A stretch of 64,000 nt of DNA from an uncultured Erysipelotrichaceae bacterium. Its GTDB lineage: Bacteria; Bacillota_I; Bacilli_A; RF39; UBA660. The position numbers were made by a program, and so were the translations under genes. Under the pieces are notes generated by a model. It was not told where the DNA came from. It did no database searches and was given only the letters and a program-made list of their open reading frames with translations. Where the stretch lies: positions 1-64,000 of the forward strand of contig CADBKG010000003.1 of the NCBI GenBank assembly GCA_902795215.1, in the 5' to 3' direction. Below, in pieces: positions 1,814 to 14,623 of the stretch (its first letter is position 1; each line of letters opens with the position of its first letter).

Positions 1814-1863
1814 CCAAAAAGTACTTTTAGTGTTATAATTGTTTTCGAGAAGAGGTGAGGAGT

Positions 1864-2970
1864 ATGCCTAAAAAAGTAGTTATTGGAATGAGTGGGGGAG
1901 TTGATTCTTCCGTTGCAGCATCCCTTTTATTAAAAGAAGAATATGAAGTAATTGGTCTATTTATGAGAAATTGGGACTCTAGTATTAATGGTGAATTTGA
2001 TGGAAGTCCAGTCTCTGAAAATAATATATGTCCTCAAGAAGAAGATTATAACGATGCAAAAAAGGTTTGTGATCATTTAGGAATTCCACTTTATAGAGTA
2101 GATTTTATTAAAGAATATTGGGATGATGTATTTACTTACTTTTTAAATGAATTAAAAGAAGGTAGAACTCCAAATCCTGATTTAATGTGTAATAAATATA
2201 TTAAGTTTGATGTTTTTATAAAGGAAGCTAGGAAACTTGGCGCAGATTATATTGCAACAGGGCATTATGCCAGATTAAAAGATGGCAAATTACTTAGAGG
2301 CGTGGATGATAATAAAGATCAAACTTACTTCTTAGCTCAAGTTAATAAAGAAGCATTTAAAGATATATTATTTCCAATAGGGGATATAGATAAAAAAACA
2401 GTTAGAGAAATAGCTTTAAAAGAAAACATTCCTACTGCTAAAAAGAAAGATTCTACAGGTATTTGTTTTATTGGTGAAAGAAACTTTCAAAGGTTTATTC
2501 ATAACTTCTTAAAACCTAATCCTGGTGAGATTATCGATATAGATACAAACAAGGTTATTGGAACGCACAATGGTCTTATGAATTATACTATAGGTCAAAG
2601 AAGAAATGTTGGTATAAGCGGTAATCAAGAAAAACATTATGTAGTTGGTAAAGATGTAAAGAAAAATGAGTTGTATGTAGCATTTGGTGAAGATCCTAAG
2701 TGGTTATATTCTGACAAATGCATTATAGATAATATAAACTTTATAAGTGATTCAAGGCCTAAAAAATGTACTGCTAAATTTAGATATAGAAGTAAAGATA
2801 TCGATGCTTTATTGGAATATCATGACAACTATATAGTTGTTAAATATCCTAGCCTTGCTAAAGGAGTTACTCCAGGTCAAGCATGCGTTTTATATGATGG
2901 CGAAGAATGTCTTGGTTCTGGAATTATTAAAGAAATATATAAAGATAATGAAAAATTATGGTATTTATAA
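1864..2970 (+). CDS. mnmA: tRNA-specific 2-thiouridylase MnmA
   Basis: Thiolates U34 of tRNA-Lys, -Glu and -Gln using persulfide sulfur relayed from a cysteine desulfurase. The N-terminal PP-loop is GMSGGVDSS. The two catalytic cysteines are visible in DLMCNKYIKF (about residue 106) and DSTGICFIGER (about residue 205), with GHYAR and DQTYFL in between; the C-terminal barrel (FRYRS, TPGQACVLYDGEECLG) is complete. Length is normal for the family. ATG at 1864 is chosen over the upstream in-frame GTG because AGAGGTGAGG is the ribosome binding site. The SufS/SufU genes at 54-55 kb could supply sulfur. Confidence 0.97.
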   Translation: MPKKVVIGMSGGVDSSVAASLLLKEEYEVIGLFMRNWDSSINGEFDGSPVSENNICPQEEDYNDAKKVCDHLGIPLYRVDFIKEYWDDVFTYFLNELKEGRTPNPDLMCNKYIKFDVFIKEARKLGADYIATGHYARLKDGKLLRGVDDNKDQTYFLAQVNKEAFKDILFPIGDIDKKTVREIALKENIPTAKKKDSTGICFIGERNFQRFIHNFLKPNPGEIIDIDTNKVIGTHNGLMNYTIGQRRNVGISGNQEKHYVVGKDVKKNELYVAFGEDPKWLYSDKCIIDNINFISDSRPKKCTAKFRYRSKDIDALLEYHDNYIVVKYPSLAKGVTPGQACVLYDGEECLGSGIIKEIYKDNEKLWYL

Positions 2971-2972
2971 TT

Positions 2973-2999
2973 AGATTGGATTATTCCAATCTTTTTTTA
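2973..2999 (+). terminator. intrinsic terminator after mnmA
   Basis: Perfect 8-bp stem AGATTGGA/TCCAATCT with a TTAT loop and a T-run immediately after the right arm. Confidence 0.85.
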
Positions 3000-3050
3000 A
3001 AGCATAATTTTTAAATATTGCAAGTTTTTTTAAAAATTAACATAATATAG

Positions 3051-3080
3051 TTGACAAATAAGTGTCTAGTAAGGTAAAAT
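3051..3080 (+). promoter_or_regulatory. sigma-A-type promoter for the HTH gene at 3122
   Basis: TTGACA at 3051-3056 and TAAAAT at 3075-3080 with an 18-base spacer, about 40 bases ahead of the start codon. Confidence 0.65.
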
Positions 3081-3121
3081 AAATATGTAAAATATGATAG
3101 GGTGGGAGAAGATAGAAAAAT

Positions 3122-3910
3122 ATGAAAAGTTTTAATGATTTATTACAAGAATTAGGGGTATCAAAAGTAAAACTTGCTAAATATTTAGGAGTTTCAAGAC
3201 AAATGGTATACAACTATTTGGATTTAAAATCGCTTGATGAATGGCCTAATGAAAAGAAACTTTTAATTTATAAATTACTCGGTATAACTGATGGAAGTGA
3301 AAAGAGTCTTAGTAAAATTAAAGTTACACCAGAATATAGTATGGAAATTGAAAGCAAATTAAATTCAAGTTCTCAAGAAAGTTTTGATTCAGATGCACTA
3401 GTTGATTTAAAAAAATTATCAAAAGATGAAAAAGATCTATATAAGAATTTAACTTATTTAATTAAAGATAAATTTTCTGATGAATATAAGCATGATGAGA
3501 ATATTGCAACCTTAACTTATATGTATCACTTACTTCAAAGTATGGATAACGTTAAGGAAGTAAAATATATGCTTGCTTATATGTCAAAATCTCTTGGTTT
3601 CACTAATCCAGAGGAATTTAAGTTTAATGAAAACCAACAATTCAGTTTTGAAGGTATAGTTCATTCAGCCTTTACTTTATATTCATCAGGAGGTGCTAGC
3701 AAAACTAAAGTCATGGAATCACATGCAAGATTTGTTCAAGAAATAGAACAAAAGAAGGAAGAGAAACTTGCTAGAACAGCACAACTAAATGTATTTAAAG
3801 AGCAGGCATTAAAAGAACTTGGATATTCAAGTTTTACTCCAGAAAATGCTCAAGAATTCATTGAAAAACTAGCTGAAATTGAATGTAGAGCATCTTCTTC
3901 ATCAAATTAA
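3122..3910 (+). CDS. XRE-like helix-turn-helix protein of unknown target
   Basis: 262 residues. Residues 5-50 form a Cro/C1-type helix-turn-helix (KLAKYLGVSRQMVYNYL). The rest is helical and charged, with no membrane segment, and I do not recognise a domain; a Ser-rich stretch (SKLNSSSQESFDSD) links the halves, and residues 210-255 are Glu/Lys-rich and may form a coiled coil. It has its own strong promoter and lies just left of the dif-containing gap, transcribed toward it. Probably a DNA-binding regulator. The weak Shine-Dalgarno (GGGAGAAG) is about 12 bases from the ATG. Confidence 0.75.
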   Translation: MKSFNDLLQELGVSKVKLAKYLGVSRQMVYNYLDLKSLDEWPNEKKLLIYKLLGITDGSEKSLSKIKVTPEYSMEIESKLNSSSQESFDSDALVDLKKLSKDEKDLYKNLTYLIKDKFSDEYKHDENIATLTYMYHLLQSMDNVKEVKYMLAYMSKSLGFTNPEEFKFNENQQFSFEGIVHSAFTLYSSGGASKTKVMESHARFVQEIEQKKEEKLARTAQLNVFKEQALKELGYSSFTPENAQEFIEKLAEIECRASSSSN

Positions 3911-4410
3911 TAGGTAAGAGTGGGGGAAGTTAATAAAAAGCTTACCCTAGCAATAATCATACAAATATGTTTTGAATTTATTCATATGTTTTATATTATA
4001 TAGATTATATTAATAATAATTAGTTAAATTTATTAGTTATTATAATAATTAATAAATATATAATATGTTATTAGTAATTGTCATAAGTTAAAAAAAATTT
4101 AACCCCCCTACTTTAGATTTTAGAAAAAAAATAGGGGATAGAAATATTTTCAAAAGTATATCATTTTTTGATAATAAGTTAATGAATTATTCATCTTATT
4201 TAAAAAAATGATTAAATAAATGAATAAATAATATAATAATAAAGATTATAAAATAATAAAAATATATTTTATTTAAAATTATTTATAAAAATTAATTTTA
4301 TAAATTATAATTTAATTATTATGTAGTTTTTATAGGTTATACCTAGGATGGACTGATTTTGAAAAATTAATTTAGCTTAGGAATTAATCGATAAAAATTA
4401 AAAACGAGTA
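3911..4410. other. A+T-rich non-coding gap left of dif
   Basis: About 500 bases without a plausible gene. It opens with a possible hairpin (TAGGTAAG near 3912 pairing with CTTACC near 3950). A long stretch made almost wholly of A and T then follows to about 4090. An isolated GC island (CCCCCTA near 4105 facing TAGGGG near 4132) could form a stem. From 4320 the sequence becomes mixed and leads into the dif site. No tRNA, known riboswitch or origin motif recognised. Confidence 0.6.
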
Positions 4411-4438
4411 ACTTCGCATAATCAATATTATGTTAACT
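4411..4438 (+). other. dif: dif-like XerC/XerD chromosome dimer resolution site
   Basis: A 28-bp site made of left arm ACTTCGCATAA, central hexamer TCAATA and right arm TTATGTTAACT. From memory of known sites, the left arm starts ACTTC as in Bacillus dif and ends CGCATAA as in E. coli dif; the right arm TTATGTTAA-T matches the well-conserved XerD arm. I count 22 of 28 identities to the B. subtilis site. A XerC/D gene lies 1.4 kb away and FtsK about 8 kb away, and the dominant gene strand switches here from + to -, as expected at the replication terminus. Confidence 0.87.
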
Positions 4439-4478
4439 TCTATATAAAAAGAAAAATTTTAAGGTGGTGTGTTATTTT

Positions 4479-4799
4479 ATGAAATTGAGATTTGAAGATG
4501 GACATATTAGTAACTTTGATGATGTTATTAAATACGTTGATAATGGTCAAGATGATCTTAGGCCACTCTATCAAGATATTCGTACTCATCTATCTAATGA
4601 TGATTTTAAATCCTCTAATGATTATGATATGGCTAGATATACTTTAAAAAAGATTCGTAATAAAGTTTCTAGTAATTTAAGTTCTAATCAAAGTTATATT
4701 AATGACTCTAAAGGTGTTGCAGTTGCATCCATTATATTAATGGTTAATGCTGTAATTACTGCTATTATGTTTATGCTTATATTAATTTCAAGATTGTAG
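4479..4799 (+). CDS. small C-tail-anchored membrane protein, unknown function
   Basis: 106 residues from ATG 4479, preceded by AAGGTGGTG at 4461-4469, which is why the upstream in-frame GTG codons were rejected. The N-terminal 80 residues are polar and acidic (FEDGHISNFDDVIKYVDNG), and one helix sits at the C-terminus (VASIILMVNAVITAIMFMLIL). The topology suggests a tail-anchored protein with a cytoplasmic head. No family recognised. It starts 40 bases after dif, so dif lies in its leader or promoter region. Confidence 0.65.
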   Translation: MKLRFEDGHISNFDDVIKYVDNGQDDLRPLYQDIRTHLSNDDFKSSNDYDMARYTLKKIRNKVSSNLSSNQSYINDSKGVAVASIILMVNAVITAIMFMLILISRL

Positions 4800-4807
4800 C
4801 ATCTTCC

Positions 4808-4838
4808 CTCCTCTACTTAAAAGTAGGGGAGTTTTTAA
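4808..4838 (+). terminator. intrinsic terminator after the small membrane protein gene
   Basis: CTCCTCTACTT pairs with AAGTAGGGGAG (one wobble) around an AA loop and is followed by TTTTT. It may also serve the convergent ZIP transporter gene ending at 4835. Confidence 0.8.
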
Positions 4839-5575
4839 ATAAAAATACTTATTAATGATATAACTATTCCTATTATTATACCTTTTATAATATATCTTTC
4901 TTTATTATATTTTTTAGCTTCTGGAAGAAGTTCTTCTATAGATAGTGTAATCATTATTCCACTTACAATAATTAGTGTTATCCCTACTCCCTTATCAGTT
5001 ATCATATCTTTTAAAAAAAGGTATGTAATAATAGCCCCTATTGGTTCAGCTAGAGATGATAAAAAAGTAATATATAATGCTTTTATTTTATTTTTTGTTG
5101 CATAATATATAGGCACAGCAATAGCAATTCCTTCAGGTATATTATGCATTGCAATTGCAAAACATATCTTTAATCCTAAGTTATAGCTATGCATACTGCT
5201 CATAAATGTAAGTATACCTTCTGGTAAATTATGAAGTATTAAAGTTAGAAATGATAGTATTCCTATTTTATATAGACTACTCCCCTTCTCTTTAAGAATT
5301 ATCTTTGAAAATATTTTCACTAGTACAAAACCTATAGTTAAAAATAATATTAAATATAATATATAACTAGTAAAATAATTATTCGATAATAATTTTATAC
5401 TTTCTGGTAATAAATCTAGTATACTAATTAAAACCATTACTGATAATGATATAGATAAACAAGTACATATAAATTCATCTTTTTTCTTTATATTAAAAAA
5501 TATAAATATAGTTCCAAGTAAAGTAGATAATCCTGCAATAGAAGAAAGAATTATTGAGTACAATAAGTTATTCAT
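4835..5575 (-). CDS. ZIP family divalent metal transporter (ZupT-like)
   Basis: 246 residues, about eight membrane helices. The two signature ZIP helices are present: LHNLPEGILTF (about residue 113) and MHNIPEGIAIAVP (about residue 142), whose His, Asn, Pro and Glu residues line the binuclear metal site; a third motif, SLAEPIGAII, follows. ZIP proteins import zinc, iron or manganese down the electrochemical gradient. Length and motifs fit the ZupT/GufA-like bacterial branch; the metal cannot be told from sequence. Monocistronic. The Shine-Dalgarno before ATG is weak. Confidence 0.92.
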   Translation of the reverse strand: MNNLLYSIILSSIAGLSTLLGTIFIFFNIKKKDEFICTCLSISLSVMVLISILDLLPESIKLLSNNYFTSYILYLILFLTIGFVLVKIFSKIILKEKGSSLYKIGILSFLTLILHNLPEGILTFMSSMHSYNLGLKICFAIAMHNIPEGIAIAVPIYYATKNKIKALYITFLSSLAEPIGAIITYLFLKDMITDKGVGITLIIVSGIMITLSIEELLPEAKKYNKERYIIKGIIIGIVISLISIFI

Positions 5576-5658
5576 AATTAATTATATTACTTAAAAATAC
5601 CACTTATTACCATGTTTATTTTTATAATACTAGCCATACTAATAGTGGGAGGTAAATT

Positions 5659-5787
5659 ATGGCTAAATCAAGAAATTCGTCTAGTTGTCATAACAATGCT
5701 AAATCTAGAAATAGCGCTAGAACAAATGCAAGAAATAAAGCAAGAAATAGTGCTAGAACTAGAAATAATAACGAAGACGAAAATTAA
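5659..5787 (+). CDS. 42-aa basic Arg/Asn/Ala/Ser-repeat peptide
   Basis: Starts at ATG 5659 after a strong ribosome binding site (GTGGGAGGTAAATT). The product begins MAKSRNSSSCHNNAKS, then repeats units like ARTNARNKARNSARTRN and ends in an acidic tail (NEDEN). A near-perfect AR-N or SRN periodicity with almost no hydrophobic residues suggests a disordered, nucleic-acid-binding or structural peptide. Similar Asn/Arg/Lys-rich small proteins occur in spore formers, so a spore-core or coat role is possible but is inference. A longer overlapping frame (5612-5842) lacks a ribosome binding site and is rejected. Confidence 0.6.
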   Translation: MAKSRNSSSCHNNAKSRNSARTNARNKARNSARTRNNNEDEN

Positions 5788-5796
5788 TTTAATTAA

Positions 5797-5824
5797 AAAA
5801 GCCAACTATTTTGTTGGTTTTTTA
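5797..5824 (+). terminator. intrinsic terminator after the 42-aa peptide gene
   Basis: AAAAGCCAAC and GTTGGTTTTT arms around TATTTT, followed by T residues; the A-rich left flank would also serve the convergent recombinase gene ending at 5822. Confidence 0.75.
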
Positions 5825-6688
5825 GTTATCTCTAGGATTTAAGTCATCATAATCTTTTTGCAGAGTTTCAAGAGCAATGTGTGTGTATATTTCAGTAGTA
5901 GCTATATTTTCATGTCCAAGAAGCTCTTGAATGAACCTAATATCTGCCCCACCAAGTAATAGATGAGTTGCAAATGAATGTCTTAGAGTATGGGGACTGA
6001 TATTTTTTGTAATTCCAGCATCCCCTGCCCTTTTTTTAAGCATTTTAAATACAGCTTGTCTTGTTATGTTTTTACCATGATTATTTAAAAATAAATAATC
6101 AGTAGATATTCCTTTAAGCATTTTAGGTCTTATATTTTTAATATAATCATCTAAATAACTCGTGGTAATATCATTAAACGGTACTACCCTTTCTTTAGAA
6201 CCCTTTCCCATTACTTTAACAAAAGATTCATTTATATTAATATTTTCTAATTTTAATGAAACTAATTCCGAAATTCTAAGTCCTGAACTATATAAAAGCT
6301 CAAGCATACACCTATCTCTAAAAGCAAAATTAGAATCAGTCTTAAAATCTAGTAATTTATCGATTTCGTCTACATCTAATACATCAGGAAGATGTTTTGA
6401 TAATTTTGGACTGGATATACCATCCATAGGATTTACAGTTATATATTTTTTCTTTATCATAAAATCATAAAACATTCTAAGGGTAGTTAAATACCTAGCT
6501 AGAGTTTTATCTTTTTTATCACTTAAATATTTAATAAATTTTCTTATATCATGTGTATTTATATTTTTTAAATCTTTACCTATATAATTAGAGAATATTA
6601 AAAGATCACTATTATATGAACTTATAGTGTTTTTAGAGTAATTTTTTGCGTATTCTAAATCTATTAAAAATTCATCTATATATTCCAT
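5822..6688 (-). CDS. xerD: XerC/XerD-type site-specific tyrosine recombinase
   Basis: 288 residues, the normal Xer length. The N-terminal SAM-like DNA-binding domain (1-90) is followed by the catalytic domain with all active residues visible: R138 (SSGLRISEL), a hairpin lysine at about 162-165 (GKGSKE), H233 and R236 (SPHTLRHSFATHL), H259 (LLGHE) and nucleophile Y268 (TTEIYTH). Xer enzymes resolve chromosome dimers at dif, with one partner activated by FtsK. The dif site is 1.4 kb away and ftsK 5.6 kb away. Start set by GGAGGTATT before ATG. Whether this is the XerC or XerD partner cannot be decided here, so the symbol is tentative; no second xer gene is in the window. Confidence 0.93.
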   Translation of the reverse strand: MEYIDEFLIDLEYAKNYSKNTISSYNSDLLIFSNYIGKDLKNINTHDIRKFIKYLSDKKDKTLARYLTTLRMFYDFMIKKKYITVNPMDGISSPKLSKHLPDVLDVDEIDKLLDFKTDSNFAFRDRCMLELLYSSGLRISELVSLKLENININESFVKVMGKGSKERVVPFNDITTSYLDDYIKNIRPKMLKGISTDYLFLNNHGKNITRQAVFKMLKKRAGDAGITKNISPHTLRHSFATHLLLGGADIRFIQELLGHENIATTEIYTHIALETLQKDYDDLNPRDN

Positions 6689-6768
6689 AATACCTCCATA
6701 TAAATTATATCATTTATAGCTTTTTTTTACTATGTTATTTTGATATAATAGCATATGGAAGTGATAAT

Positions 6769-7959
6769 ATGGAATTACTCGCAAATGAAAAAAGACCCAC
6801 TAAACTATCAGATATTAAAGGACAAGATCATTTAGTTGGTAAAGATGGAATTATTACTAATTTAATAAAGAATAAAAAAATGTTTTCAATTATATTATAT
6901 GGCAATCCTGGTACTGGTAAAACTAGTATAGCATATGCTATTGCTAATGAATTAAAAATAGATTATAGAGTTTTAAATGCTACTGTTAATAATAAAACAG
7001 ACATAGATATTGTTATTGAAGAAGCTAGAATGAATAATGGTATGCTTCTTATTATGGATGAAATACATAGACTTGATAAAGGAAAACAAGATTTGCTTTT
7101 ACCTCATATTGAAAGTGGCTTAATAACTTTAATTGGACTAACTACATCTAATCCTTATTATTCAATTAATCCTGCTATTAGGTCAAGAGTACAAATATTT
7201 GAAGTAAAACCTTTAAAAGAAGAAGATATGATTAAAATATTAAAAAATGCTTCAAAAGATTTAAAAGACATTAAAGTAAATGAGAAAACATTAAAATATA
7301 TTTCAGCTATATCTAATGGTGATGCTAGAAGTGCTATTAATACTCTCGAAATGGCTTATTATATTGATAAAAATGTTACAATAGACTTATTACAAAGAAT
7401 TAACAAAAAACCTGCAATTATGGGTGATAAAAACGGTAATAGCCATTATGAATTATTATCGGCATTTCAAAAATCAATTCGTGGTAGTGATGTTAATGCT
7501 TCATTATATTATCTTGGAATGCTCTTAGAAATTGGGGATTTAGATAGTATATTTAGAAGAATGAGTGTTATTGCATATGAAGATATTGGTCTTGCTAATC
7601 CTGGGATTGGACCTAAAGTTCATGCTGCAATAGAAACTGTTAAACTACTTGGGATGCCAGAAGGAAGAATTCCACTAAGTGATGTTATTATTGAAATGGC
7701 TTTGTCGCCAAAATCAAATAGTGGTATTATGGCAATTGATAAAGTATTAAGTGATATAAACTCAGGTAAAACTGGTGAAGTTCCAAAACATATTAATAGT
7801 GAAATGAACCCTTTATATAAATATCCTCATAATTATCCTAAAGCTTGGGTTAATCAGCAATATTTACCAGATAATATAAAGGATAGTATATACTACTCTC
7901 CAAATAATAATGCTTATGAAAACAATATGCAAAAAGTAGATAAAGAAAGAAGGAATTAA
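6769..7959 (+). CDS. rarA: replication-associated recombination protein A (RarA/MgsA AAA+ ATPase)
   Basis: 396 residues. The opening MELLANEKRPTKLSDIKGQ is typical of RarA/RuvB-like loaders. Walker A GNPGTGKT is at 45-52 and Walker B with sensor LIMDEIHR at about 94-101. The family-specific C-terminal oligomerisation region (SLYYLGMLLEIGD, AYEDIGLANP) is complete, ending with KAWVNQQYLP. RarA acts at stalled forks together with SSB. It is 2.3 kb from dif. GpsA starts one base after its stop, so the two are co-transcribed. A TATAAT at 6744-6749 probably belongs to its promoter. Confidence 0.93.
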   Translation: MELLANEKRPTKLSDIKGQDHLVGKDGIITNLIKNKKMFSIILYGNPGTGKTSIAYAIANELKIDYRVLNATVNNKTDIDIVIEEARMNNGMLLIMDEIHRLDKGKQDLLLPHIESGLITLIGLTTSNPYYSINPAIRSRVQIFEVKPLKEEDMIKILKNASKDLKDIKVNEKTLKYISAISNGDARSAINTLEMAYYIDKNVTIDLLQRINKKPAIMGDKNGNSHYELLSAFQKSIRGSDVNASLYYLGMLLEIGDLDSIFRRMSVIAYEDIGLANPGIGPKVHAAIETVKLLGMPEGRIPLSDVIIEMALSPKSNSGIMAIDKVLSDINSGKTGEVPKHINSEMNPLYKYPHNYPKAWVNQQYLPDNIKDSIYYSPNNNAYENNMQKVDKERRN

Positions 7960-7960
7960 T

Positions 7961-8872
7961 ATGAAAATAAGTATAATTGGCTCAGGTGTTTTTGCAAAGG
8001 CTATCGCAGCTCTAATTACAAGCAATGGACACAGTCTTACTATGTGGACAGAAGAAGACAATCCTAGGAAAATAGTCGTTCCAAGAAAAGTAAAAGTAAC
8101 AAACGATATAAAAGTTGCAACAGAAGATAAAGATGTAATTTTCATGCTTATAGGTTCCAAATATATGAAAAGTACTTTAGCTTCTATGAAACCATATTAT
8201 AATAAATCGCTAATTGTTATAGGTTCTAAAGGACTACTTGATGCTGGAAAAACATTGTATCAATTAACAAAAGAAGAATTACACACTAGTAATATTGGTG
8301 TTATTTCTGGACCAACTTTTGCAATTGATGTTAAAAATCTAGAACCTGTTGGCTTTACCTATGCTGATAAGAACAAAGATAATTATAAATTGCTTAGAGA
8401 ATTATTTCAAACTTCTATTAAAGAATATACTATTAATACTGAAGAAATTGAAATATGTGCGTCTATTAAAAATGTTTATGCAATTGGAAGTGGGATTATA
8501 TATGGCTTTAACTTTGGTATGTCTACTAGAGTATTATATTTAATGAAAGTAATTGAGGAAATAAAATTAATATTGAAATCACTTAATCTAACTAGTAAAG
8601 AAATATATTCATATGCTGGTATTGGAGACTTATTTTTAACTTCTTCTAGTCCAAATTCTAGAAACTTTACTTTAGGTACTATCATATCAATGGGAAGAAA
8701 AAAAGAAGTAAATGAATTCTTGCATAAAAATACCGTTGAAGGATATGAGAATTTATTATCTTTTTATAAATATTTACAAGAAAAAAGTATAGAAGCACCT
8801 ATACTTACAAAATTATATAAAATATTAATCGAAGATGCTAAACCAAAGAGCCTTATTGAGATTCTTCACTAG
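7961..8872 (+). CDS. gpsA: NAD(P)-dependent glycerol-3-phosphate dehydrogenase
   Basis: 303 residues. Converts dihydroxyacetone phosphate to sn-glycerol-3-phosphate for phospholipid synthesis. N-terminal Rossmann fold (SIIGSGVFAKAIA), SGPTFAIDV, the catalytic-lysine helix KNVYAIGSGIIYGF, and the substrate-binding region GIGDLFLTSSSPNSRN are present, with VEGYENL near the end. It is shorter than most GpsA proteins (about 330-340). Shine-Dalgarno AAAGAAGGA overlaps the end of rarA. Its last 20 bases overlap the 3' end of the convergent cotE gene. Confidence 0.92.
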   Translation: MKISIIGSGVFAKAIAALITSNGHSLTMWTEEDNPRKIVVPRKVKVTNDIKVATEDKDVIFMLIGSKYMKSTLASMKPYYNKSLIVIGSKGLLDAGKTLYQLTKEELHTSNIGVISGPTFAIDVKNLEPVGFTYADKNKDNYKLLRELFQTSIKEYTINTEEIEICASIKNVYAIGSGIIYGFNFGMSTRVLYLMKVIEEIKLILKSLNLTSKEIYSYAGIGDLFLTSSSPNSRNFTLGTIISMGRKKEVNEFLHKNTVEGYENLLSFYKYLQEKSIEAPILTKLYKILIEDAKPKSLIEILH

Positions 8873-9416
8873 CATCTTTTTCTTCATCTAAATATTCTTC
8901 TGTTACCTCATTATCTATATCTTCAAATACTTCGTCATTTACTTCTTCATCTATTATTTCTTCATAATCATCGTAATCATCCTCTGCACTTACTTTTATT
9001 TTAGTATCCCCTACTACTTCAACGCCTAGTTCTTTGTGCATAGTAAATTTAATGTTATTACCATCTACATTAACATCAATAACATTTGGATCACTCAAAC
9101 TACTAACTATTATTTCTTTTTTATTAGATAAACTTGAATCATTTATATTTACATTCATTTTATCATTATATGAATAAGTATTAGAAGCTACCCCTGTTTT
9201 GCTGTTATTATCATATGAATACCAAACATTTATATCAAAATTACCAGAAACAAATATATCATTATTTACACTATTTCCATCAAATTTATGATTTGTTATC
9301 CAACATCCAAGCACGGTATCTGGTTTGTTCTCTGGAGTAATTGTATACTCCTTTTCACTAGCCTTTTTCCCCTTTCCAACTACTGCTTTAGTAACAATCT
9401 CTTTAAAATATGCCAT
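8853..9416 (-). CDS. cotE: outer spore coat morphogenetic protein CotE
   Basis: 187 residues. The N-terminal 130 residues follow B. subtilis CotE closely as I recall it: FKEIVTKAVVGKGKK, ITPENKPDTVLGCWITNHK and GNFDINVWYSYDNNSKT all match its core. The C-terminal 55 residues are almost all Asp/Glu, also a CotE hallmark. CotE is made in the mother cell and directs outer coat assembly; it is a marker of Bacilli spore formers. Start set by AGGAGGTATTATTT. The final codons overlap gpsA on the other strand. A sigma-K-like element lies just upstream. Confidence 0.93.
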   Translation of the reverse strand: MAYFKEIVTKAVVGKGKKASEKEYTITPENKPDTVLGCWITNHKFDGNSVNNDIFVSGNFDINVWYSYDNNSKTGVASNTYSYNDKMNVNINDSSLSNKKEIIVSSLSDPNVIDVNVDGNNIKFTMHKELGVEVVGDTKIKVSAEDDYDDYEEIIDEEVNDEVFEDIDNEVTEEYLDEEKDASEESQ

Positions 9417-11368: not shown

Positions 11369-11642
11369 TCCTTAATATATTTCTTTGTGCACTATTAAGC
11401 ACGTTTTCTATCATAGTCCATTCTTCTTCAGTAGTAATAGGAGTAAGATCTAAGCTTTCCCCTTCCCCATCATAGATACTGGCATATGTTTTATAGTTTT
11501 TGTTTTCATCTAAAGTATAATCAGTATATATAATATAGTTTTTACCGAATTCTTTTGATTCTACAGTTAAGATAACTTCAAATTCTCTACTGTTTCCTTT
11601 ATCATCTTCTAAGGTAAAAACATTTTTATTGTCTTTCTTCAT
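11340..11642 (-). CDS. DUF1292 family protein (YrzB-like)
   Basis: 100 residues. The core FTLEDDKGNSREFEVILTVE and NYIIYTDYTLDENKN are typical of DUF1292, a small acidic beta-rich protein of unknown function that follows ruvX in many Firmicutes. The C-terminal helix (EEEWTMIENVLNSA) is also characteristic. Ribosome binding site GGGAGAGAGA. Overlaps ruvX by 17 bases, so translation is probably coupled. Confidence 0.9.
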   Translation of the reverse strand: MKKDNKNVFTLEDDKGNSREFEVILTVESKEFGKNYIIYTDYTLDENKNYKTYASIYDGEGESLDLTPITTEEEWTMIENVLNSAQRNILRNEKEDESDK

Positions 11643-12057
11643 TCTCTCTCCCTTTCATTCTAATAAATGTATCAAGTATAACAGACGCTGCGACTGCATC
11701 GATTACTTTTTTTCTTTTTTCGCGTCTCATTCCTTCACCAATTAGATAACTTTCAGCTTCCATAGTAGATAACCTTTCATCAACTAGGTTAATTTTAATA
11801 TCTGTTTTTGTTTCTAATTGATTTTTAAAATCAAGACTTCTTTGAGATGCAAAACCAAGAGAATTATCCATATTTTTAGGCAACCCTAAAGCTATTTCAT
11901 TAATCTCTTTCTCTTTTATTATATCTAATACTCTATTTATAGCGTCTTCTATATTACTATATTTAATTGTTTCATATGGACTTGAAATAGTCCCTGTTTT
12001 ATCAGTAATGGCCACTCCAAGAGTTTTAGTACCTAAATCTAATCCTAAATATCTCAT
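11626..12057 (-). CDS. ruvX: RuvX/YqgF family RNase H-fold nuclease (putative Holliday junction resolvase)
   Basis: 143 residues. It starts RYLGLDLGTKTLGVAITD, carrying the first catalytic Asp of the RNase H-like fold; ALGLPKNMDNSLG and INLVDERLSTMEAE (catalytic Glu), then DAVAASVILDTF with a last Asp. The family acts in pre-16S rRNA 5' maturation and has been proposed as a Holliday junction resolvase. Start overlaps the ireB stop by 4 bases. Normal length. Confidence 0.94.
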   Translation of the reverse strand: MRYLGLDLGTKTLGVAITDKTGTISSPYETIKYSNIEDAINRVLDIIKEKEINEIALGLPKNMDNSLGFASQRSLDFKNQLETKTDIKINLVDERLSTMEAESYLIGEGMRREKRKKVIDAVAASVILDTFIRMKGRENEERQ

Positions 12058-12325: not shown

Positions 12326-14578
12326 TTATTCCCCTTCATTATTCTCTACTTTTACTAGTACTTCACGTGGTTTGGAACCATTTTGTGGGCCAACTATTCC
12401 TCTTTCTTCTAATAAATCGATTATCCTTGCGGCTCGATTATATCCAATTTTAAATCTTCTTTGGATTAATGATGCACTAACTTTTCCAGTTTTTACAGCG
12501 AATTCTACAATTTCACCGTATAATACATCATCATCTCCAGCGCCAACATCTACACCACCAGCCATATGATCGCTTGTTTCGATTTCGTTTAAGCTATTAT
12601 CATAACTAGCGGCTTGTTGTTTTGAAACATATGTAATTAATCTATCAACTTCATCATCACTAATAAAGTTTCCTTGTATACGAGTTGGTACATTTTCACC
12701 CATTGGTAAATATAGCATATCACCTTTACCAAGAAGTTTTTCTGCTCCGCCCATATCAAGTATTGTTCTTGAATCTATTTGACTTGCTACTGCAAATGCT
12801 ATTCTAGATGGAATATTCGCTTTTACAACACCTGTAATTACATCTGTAGATGGACGCTGAGTTGCAACTATTAAATGAATACCTGCAGCACGTGCCATTT
12901 GAGTGATACGCATTATTGAGTCTTCTACATCTTTTTTGGCCACTACCATTAAATCAGCAAGCTCATCAATGATTACAACTAAATAATACATTTCATCCAT
13001 TACTTTTTTACCAGCAGATTCATTTTTCTTCCTTACCATTTCATTGTAACCTGCAATATTTTTTACATTCTTTTCAGCAAATTCATCATAACGTTTTTCC
13101 ATTATAGCAACTACTTTTTGTAATGCAGCTGAAGCTTTTTTAGGATCACTAACTACTGGCCATAAAAGATGTGGAATACCATTATAATTTGATAATTCAA
13201 CTTTTTTAGGATCCACCATGACAAGTTTAACTTCTTCTGGTTTTTTCTTCATTAATATTGAAGCAATGAAACTATTTATACATACAGATTTACCAGATCC
13301 AGTAGAACCAGCTACTAATAAATGTGGCATTTTAGATATATCTGCAAATTTTATAGCCCCCATAATATCTTTACCAAGAGCAACTGGAATATTTGCTTTT
13401 TCTGCTTCTTTTGTTGGTCTTGATAAAACCTCTCTAATTGGCACAGACGCCACTTTACTATTAGGTATTTCTATACCAACAGTACTTTTACCAGGAATAG
13501 GCGCTTGAATTCTAACTTGTTTTGCAGCTAATGCAAGGGCTATTTCTTTATTAATACTTGTAATTCTACTAACTTTAGTACCAGCGGTAATTTCAACTTC
13601 AAACTGAGTTACAGCAGGTCCTTCATGTATTTCTACAACTCTACCATTTATTTGGAAATCGCTAAGTACTCTTTCTAGATTTGCTTTATTGTTTTGTAAA
13701 AACTCTGTAGAATTTAGTTTTCCCTGTGGTTTAGGTTTATCTAATATATCAAGAGTTGGTAAAACATAATTAGTGTTTGAGCTTTCATGTTGTTCAACCT
13801 CAGGAGCACTTAAATTATTATTTAAATTCATTGATAATTGTTCTTGTTTTCCTTGTCCAAGTACTTCCCCCATATTATTATATACTTTAACATTTTCAAG
13901 AGTTGGAGTACATATTGTATCTTCAAGTGATTTCTCTTCTTTACGTTTTTTCTTGGATAGCTTTCCTTCAACTTCATCTTCATCTTCATCTTCGTCATCT
14001 TCATCGTCTTCAATACGTGCTTTACCCATTAAACTCTTAATAAAATTAAATATGTCTGCAAGTTTAATATTAAATATTAATACAATACCTAATATTAAAA
14101 ATACAAGCAATATTATTTTAGTTCCAGTATAATCAAACAAATTAGTAAATGCTATAGTAAATAATCCACCAATTATACCACCACCAGAATTAACAGTTAA
14201 TGATACATTTGTATTCATAAAATTATCAATAGTAGCTTCTATTATACCCATTCCACTTAAATTCTCCTTAATTGCATACTCCAAATGTGAATATGTAAGT
14301 ATCGCAATAAGCAAAAGATAAAACCCAATTAATCTAGAAGTAAAATAATTAGGTTTCTTCCTATTTATAAGCATATATACACCCAGGATACTTATCATCG
14401 CTAAAAAGATTACATACCATGTTCCCATAAGAAAAATAGCAAAACCTTTAATAAGAGTACCAACAGGCCCAAATTCCCCGAAACCAAGAATTCCAACCAA
14501 TATAAAAAATACTCCCCATAATTCTACTTTATATGAAACTTTTTTCTTTGAAGTTTTACTTGTTTTTTTCTTTGCCAT
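12326..14578 (-). CDS. ftsK: DNA translocase FtsK/SpoIIIE
   Basis: About 750 residues. Four N-terminal membrane helices (residues 20-175), a short acidic linker (run of D/E near 190-205), then the motor: Walker A GSTGSGKS near 424-431, VMVDPKKVELSNYNGIPHL, DELADLMVV, and ATQRPSTDVITG. The C-terminal winged-helix gamma domain is present (FKIGYNRAARIIDLLEERG). It pumps DNA through the septum, activates XerCD at dif and, as SpoIIIE, packs the forespore chromosome. ATG at 14578 is preferred over 14593 because GGTGAAG lies 5-12 bases before it. Only one such gene is in the window. Confidence 0.96.
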   Translation of the reverse strand: MAKKKTSKTSKKKVSYKVELWGVFFILVGILGFGEFGPVGTLIKGFAIFLMGTWYVIFLAMISILGVYMLINRKKPNYFTSRLIGFYLLLIAILTYSHLEYAIKENLSGMGIIEATIDNFMNTNVSLTVNSGGGIIGGLFTIAFTNLFDYTGTKIILLVFLILGIVLIFNIKLADIFNFIKSLMGKARIEDDEDDEDEDEDEVEGKLSKKKRKEEKSLEDTICTPTLENVKVYNNMGEVLGQGKQEQLSMNLNNNLSAPEVEQHESSNTNYVLPTLDILDKPKPQGKLNSTEFLQNNKANLERVLSDFQINGRVVEIHEGPAVTQFEVEITAGTKVSRITSINKEIALALAAKQVRIQAPIPGKSTVGIEIPNSKVASVPIREVLSRPTKEAEKANIPVALGKDIMGAIKFADISKMPHLLVAGSTGSGKSVCINSFIASILMKKKPEEVKLVMVDPKKVELSNYNGIPHLLWPVVSDPKKASAALQKVVAIMEKRYDEFAEKNVKNIAGYNEMVRKKNESAGKKVMDEMYYLVVIIDELADLMVVAKKDVEDSIMRITQMARAAGIHLIVATQRPSTDVITGVVKANIPSRIAFAVASQIDSRTILDMGGAEKLLGKGDMLYLPMGENVPTRIQGNFISDDEVDRLITYVSKQQAASYDNSLNEIETSDHMAGGVDVGAGDDDVLYGEIVEFAVKTGKVSASLIQRRFKIGYNRAARIIDLLEERGIVGPQNGSKPREVLVKVENNEGE

Positions 14579-14623
14579 CTTTAACTTCACCATAATAATT
14601 ATATAATAAATAAGCTTTTTAGT

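Follow-up and report, generated by a model that had tools for sequence, protein, structure and literature searches.

A dif site in the terminus region of an uncultured Bacilli genome, with a candidate polar word, an inverted repeat and a family-specific HTH gene around it

Introduction

Does the dif-like sequence near one end of a contig from an uncultured Bacilli genome mark the terminus of its chromosome, and does its surrounding locus hold anything that other dif loci do not? The site lies at 4411-4438 of the window, the 64,000-nucleotide stretch of DNA analyzed here, which covers the first part of contig C3. A first-pass annotation had described it as a 28-bp dif-like site where both replication forks meet, close to a gene for an Xer recombinase.

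Results

The dif site

The annotated site is present: the 28-mer ACTTCGCATAATCAATATTATGTTAACT occupies exactly 4411-4438, and the count of 22 of 28 identities to the dif of B. subtilis proved correct against the published sequence, with the same number (22 of 28) shared with E. coli dif (PMC3025954). Its 11-bp arms and 6-bp centre are those of a XerCD/dif site, and the inner palindrome CATAAT/ATTATG (positions 7-12 and 17-22) is perfect; palindromy of the inner six arm bases is the validation criterion of Kono et al. (PMC3025954).

4411..4438, + strand: dif site, ACTTCGCATAA-TCAATA-TTATGTTAACT, the right half being the XerD-type arm

With up to three mismatches allowed, the 28-mer occurs once in the window and in none of 100 shuffles. 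A weight matrix made from relatives' sites, one of which equals the site itself so that the matrix is not wholly independent, scored dif at 38.8 bits, against 14.9 bits for the next best match in the readable genome (all contigs except C2, 71 kb, which reads as N) and a maximum of 17.6 bits in four Markov-shuffled genomes. No second or better dif, a check that the first-pass annotation had proposed, turned up in the readable genome, and the site is thus single-copy in a count that covers every contig but the 71-kb C2.

Dif-like matches with at most three mismatches were found in 27 of 40 relatives' genomes and a control match in 0 of 40, while all nine genomes searched of the same genus had exactly one copy. 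Within the genus, identity is 97% in the dif arms and 80% in the centre, falling to 52-57% in the 60-bp flanks on either side; these flanks do not align between genomes, and the conserved block consists of the 28-mer and one to three further bases only. The 28-mer is almost certainly a dif site, at which joined chromosome copies are separated before division. As such it is secure, and in itself ordinary.

Alternatively, the 28-mer could be an integration scar, or a site that a mobile element targets through Xer recombination, rather than a working dif, and several relatives' contigs do end close to dif. An origin of this kind is highly improbable, however, given one copy per genome, the lack of a second, flanking copy and the conservation of the neighborhood in the order mnmA-HTH-dif-xer-rarA.

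Xer, FtsK and neighboring genes

The genes and signals next to dif, including the recombinase and translocase expected to act on it, are as follows.

1855..2970, + strand: mnmA (tRNA 2-thiouridine synthase; TIGR00420, NF001138), conserved left neighbor of the HTH gene
4808..4836, + strand: probable terminator hairpin CTCCTCTACTT-AA-AAGTAGGGGAG with a T-run, for the 4464-4799 ORF, read from the sequence
5822..6688, - strand: XerD-type tyrosine recombinase, 288 aa (XerD equivalog TIGR02225, 333.5 bits, cut-off 329.6)
6769..7959, + strand: RarA/MgsA-type AAA+ ATPase (PF12002), conserved neighbor on the right
12326..14593, - strand: FtsK/SpoIIIE DNA translocase, 755 aa, with 4TM, alpha, motor and gamma domains (PF13491, PF17854, PF01580, PF09397)

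The nearest Xer gene is 1384 bp from dif, as the earlier estimate of 1.4 kb implied, but its description as XerC/D needs refinement: the adjacent gene is XerD-type, and a XerC-like gene lies at about 76.5 kb. These are exactly the two PF00589 proteins of the genome, both encoded on contig C3 and 42% identical to each other. The second scores higher as XerC than as XerD, and its best score, 320.2 bits as XerC, is 15 below the XerC equivalog cut-off of 335.15. The product of 12326-14593 is the best FtsK match of the genome, and a RuvX gene is nearby (11626-12057). No known RNA families were found within 2900-7000. A short + strand reading frame rich in Arg, Asn, Ser and Ala (5659-5787) sits between the ZIP transporter and xerD genes.

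Gene strand and skew at the terminus

All four listed ORFs left of dif are on the + strand (100% of left coding), and 90% of the coding to its right on contig C3 is on the - strand. The strand switch reported previously is therefore borne out, although the earlier count of four + genes in five on the left becomes four of four. The first 6 kb on the right are mixed, with five + ORFs between 4464 and 10254. GC skew on contig C3 is +0.28 left of dif and -0.21 right of it, and the sign reverses no more than about 5 kb from dif. Cumulative skew reaches its maximum at 8795, against 4411 for dif, a displacement probably caused by the + genes (rarA, gpsA and others) that sit just right of dif.

The skew maximum is no more than 2.4 kb from dif in five of six family contigs (483-513 bp in four, 2.4 kb in one), the sixth having a right arm of only 7.6 kb, and about 0.2-4.2 kb from dif in five genomes of the class that belong to other families. 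A skew shift far from the site, which the first-pass annotation had named as evidence against a terminus, was thus not seen on C3, and the shift is closer still in five of the six family contigs. Its view that the forks meet at dif holds for the terminus region; as to precision, these data place the meeting point to a few kilobases rather than to the base.

The contig end lies 4.4 kb left of dif, and dnaA (PF08299) was not found in the readable genome, although contig C2, which was outside the search, may hold it. Since dnaA was not found and C2 reads as N, origin and terminus cannot be paired, and what supports the terminus assignment is the switch in strand and skew, the evidence from relatives and the site itself rather than an origin-terminus pair.

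A polar word that converges on dif

A short word, [AG]TAGGGGAT, lies preferentially on the leading strand and changes strand at dif. It is the union of AGTAGGG, TAGGGGA and AGGGGAT and was chosen by seeking words polar in the genome itself.

Polar word, written out as candidate FtsK gamma target: AGTAGGGGAT

More than 1 kb from dif, in this genome and its relatives, the two orientations of the word numbered 200:8 in leading-strand genes, 29:0 in lagging-strand genes and 39:6 in intergenic DNA. Four-G heptamers of equal composition ran in the opposite direction in lagging-strand genes (300 to 469), and gene direction and skew are therefore insufficient to explain the polarity of the word. In a separate test, the looser ARTAGGG pointed to dif on both sides in relatives' loci, its density being about 0.1 per kb at 5-10 kb and climbing about tenfold, to more than 1 per kb, near dif. 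A rise in density toward dif has also been reported for KOPS (PMC5357621). Contig C3 is the only one to carry the word in number on both strands; outside C3, the strand of the word matches the sign of the skew in roughly 140 of 143 cases, a hand sum that is partly circular, the word having been picked on the same data.

Both the leading-strand bias independent of gene direction and the convergence on dif are traits of KOPS and SRS, and [AG]TAGGGGAT is likely the KOPS/SRS-type word of this lineage and a candidate for recognition by FtsK gamma. It could instead act in recombination as a Chi-like site, or follow from strand composition, and not be read by FtsK at all. Chi sites are likewise G-rich leading-strand words, skew affects many G-rich words of this genome, and, outside the family, the word was polar in three of five class relatives and showed no polarity in the other two. 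This last result is in line with the variation of FtsK-orienting words among Firmicutes (PMC5357621). Against these alternatives stand the contrast with matched heptamers in lagging-strand genes and the KOPS-like climb in density toward dif in relatives (PMC5357621), which leave them the less probable explanation, though one to be taken seriously.

On two further contigs, C12 and C34, skew likewise turns from + to -. C12 was rejected as an alternative terminus, its polar words staying on one strand with no flip, and is probably a block of lagging-strand genes. C34 carries no polar words by which its skew switch could be judged.

An inverted repeat left of dif

Close to dif (within 1 kb), the polar word is found in the reversed direction too, and on the left side it forms an inverted repeat.

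4105..4137, no strand: CCCCTACT-n-AATAGGGG, an inverted repeat in which two copies of the polar word diverge, 306 bp to the left of dif

The left-side repeat takes the form CCCCTAYT-n-ARTAGGGG; its two arms start at a distance of 16-27 bp from each other, in most cases 23-25 bp. Across 85 family loci, 35 strict copies lie within 1 kb of dif, compared with one in the 669 kb further off. Strict copies are found in 25 of these 85 loci (about a third), and in 22 of the 25 the nearest is 245-359 bp from dif. Since this spacing holds even where the HTH gene described below sits 500-1159 bp away, the repeat is anchored to dif. At the variable position, the pairs C/A, T/A, T/G and C/G occur 9, 9, 7 and 4 times, near independence; because pairing is no better than chance, the repeat resembles a pair of DNA half-sites more than an RNA stem. 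For the most part it is not an ordinary terminator either, as only 4 of the 35 near-dif copies have a run of at least five T within the next 14 nt. Outside the family, the repeat was found in none of eight dif loci and none of five 80-kb stretches. The inverted repeat is a real feature of the dif surroundings. Three loci (L144, L148 and L149) carry two or three repeats on this side, which sit about -300, -510 and -645 to -700 from dif, or roughly 130-210 bp apart.

An HTH gene beside dif

Between mnmA and dif lies a gene for a putative DNA-binding protein, preceded by its promoter.

3050..3080, + strand: promoter of the HTH gene, TTGACA-n18-TAAAAT, with an overlapping possible operator, a ACTTGACA box in relatives
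3122..3910, + strand: uncharacterized HTH protein, 262 aa, with an XRE-like N-terminal HTH and an all-helical C-terminal part, of no known family

Pfam gave only a marginal match to HTH_ParB (24.0 versus 22.6 bits) and NCBIfam none. The protein had no sequence match in the PDB, and a PDB fold search returned only weak matches to the HTH domain, none with E below 0.8; the remainder of the predicted structure is all-helical (pLDDT 85, pTM 0.48). The protein is full length and single copy in 52 of 54 same-family genomes and, at full length, absent from the rest of 395 class genomes. Relatives occur in MAGs labelled Bacilli, Tenericutes, Erysipelotrichaceae and Candidatus Ventrenecus avicola, and among them the recognition helix VSRQMVYNYL is nearly invariant.

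At 32 of 33 loci dif lies within 8 kb on the 3' side of the HTH gene, nearly always in the same orientation. Within 1.5 kb, the HTH gene is linked to dif in 39 of 48 cases and to mnmA in 43 of 53; because mnmA is linked about equally well, the association with dif may reflect shared gene order. The ACTTGACA box, conserved in relatives and overlapping the -35 element, occurs at 3.7 per kb in the 200 bp upstream of relatives' HTH genes, compared with about 0.02 per kb elsewhere. This position over the promoter suggests that the protein may regulate its own gene. No array of this likely operator was found near dif, the box occurring only upstream of the protein's own gene. Some half-sites of the HTH promoter (TGTTAAGT) resemble the right arm of dif in some genomes, but this likeness was dropped on inspection by eye, as clades that have the one lack the other.

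Discussion

We are nearly certain that 4411-4438 is the chromosomal dif in the terminus of this low-GC, gut-type Bacilli genome, which was assembled from a metagenome, served by dimer resolution through XerC, XerD and FtsK. Circular chromosomes joined by recombination would be brought to the septum, where FtsK would be directed to dif from both replichores by the leading-strand polar sequences. Its gamma domain would then switch on XerD, and XerD and XerC together would make one crossover between the two dif copies, separating the chromosomes. These binding, activation and recombination steps are drawn from established knowledge of XerCD, dif and FtsK; what the genome itself provides is the site, unique and conserved, together with two Xer genes, an FtsK with a gamma domain, the strand and skew switch and the polar word.

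The system shares with those of E. coli and B. subtilis the 11-6-11 site, the CATAAT/ATTATG palindrome, two Xer proteins, FtsK gamma and a position at the terminus. Unlike at the dif loci of those species, the conserved neighbors here are family-specific. Commonly xerC is near dif and xerD near the origin (Kono et al., PMC3025954), whereas here the XerD-type gene adjoins dif. A Xer gene near the site is also found in the XerS/difSL system of streptococci and lactococci. That system has a single recombinase and a 31-bp site with an 11-bp centre, in contrast to the two recombinases, 28-bp site and 6-bp centre of this genome. The candidate word [AG]TAGGGGAT differs in sequence from KOPS (GGGNAGGG) and SRS (GAGAAGGG), which it resembles in being a short leading-strand word that converges on dif and becomes denser toward it. 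Unlike KOPS and SRS, it also appears as a divergent pair about 300 bp from dif. Thus, dif is of a known kind, and what is new around it is the polar word, the inverted repeat and the family-specific HTH gene.

An accessory module of dif could be made up of the HTH protein and the inverted repeat some 300 bp to the left. The protein would bind near dif and either aid Xer recombination or link the terminus to the division machinery, as MatP and ZapT do in other bacteria. To our knowledge, chromosomal dif is normally thought to need nothing beyond its 28 bp and polar words. In favor of a module are the nearly universal single, full-length HTH gene of the family with its invariant recognition helix, and its linkage to dif at almost every locus. 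The repeat, for its part, is near-exclusive to the surroundings of dif, is seen only within the family, keeps its distance from dif at loci with the HTH gene as far as 1159 bp away, and resembles paired DNA half-sites. However, linkage to mnmA is as strong as that to dif, so that hitch-hiking may explain the latter, and the strict repeat is missing from most loci. Furthermore, the probable binding word ahead of the HTH gene, ACTTGACA, does not resemble the repeat and does not occur near dif. A module of this kind is therefore doubtful, and it is marginally more doubtful that a fixed-distance divergent pair of FtsK words and a dedicated HTH protein control Xer recombination or terminus positioning. 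For this and every other tally made here across related genomes, the genomes do not represent independent events. That the HTH protein acts at dif is a hypothesis. It resembles MatP and ZapT as a terminus-linked DNA-binding protein by gene location only, and differs from them in lacking similarity to solved proteins beyond the HTH and in having no array of sites that we could find.

The dif site fixes the terminus of an uncultured, small-genome, spore-gene-bearing lineage of Bacilli, for which the whole dimer-resolution machinery can now be named. The predicted FtsK-orienting word is new and should be useful, as such words are poorly conserved in Firmicutes; the possible accessory module of HTH protein and inverted repeat offers a second testable prediction. 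Near the terminus of this 1.3-Mb genome are also two sporulation genes, encoding a SpoIIM-like protein (1244-1813) and CotE (8853-9416). A tandem GACA-type repeat (CAGACAG), found on many of the genome's contigs, is mostly intergenic and almost strictly confined to the leading strand (75 versus 1 by strand).
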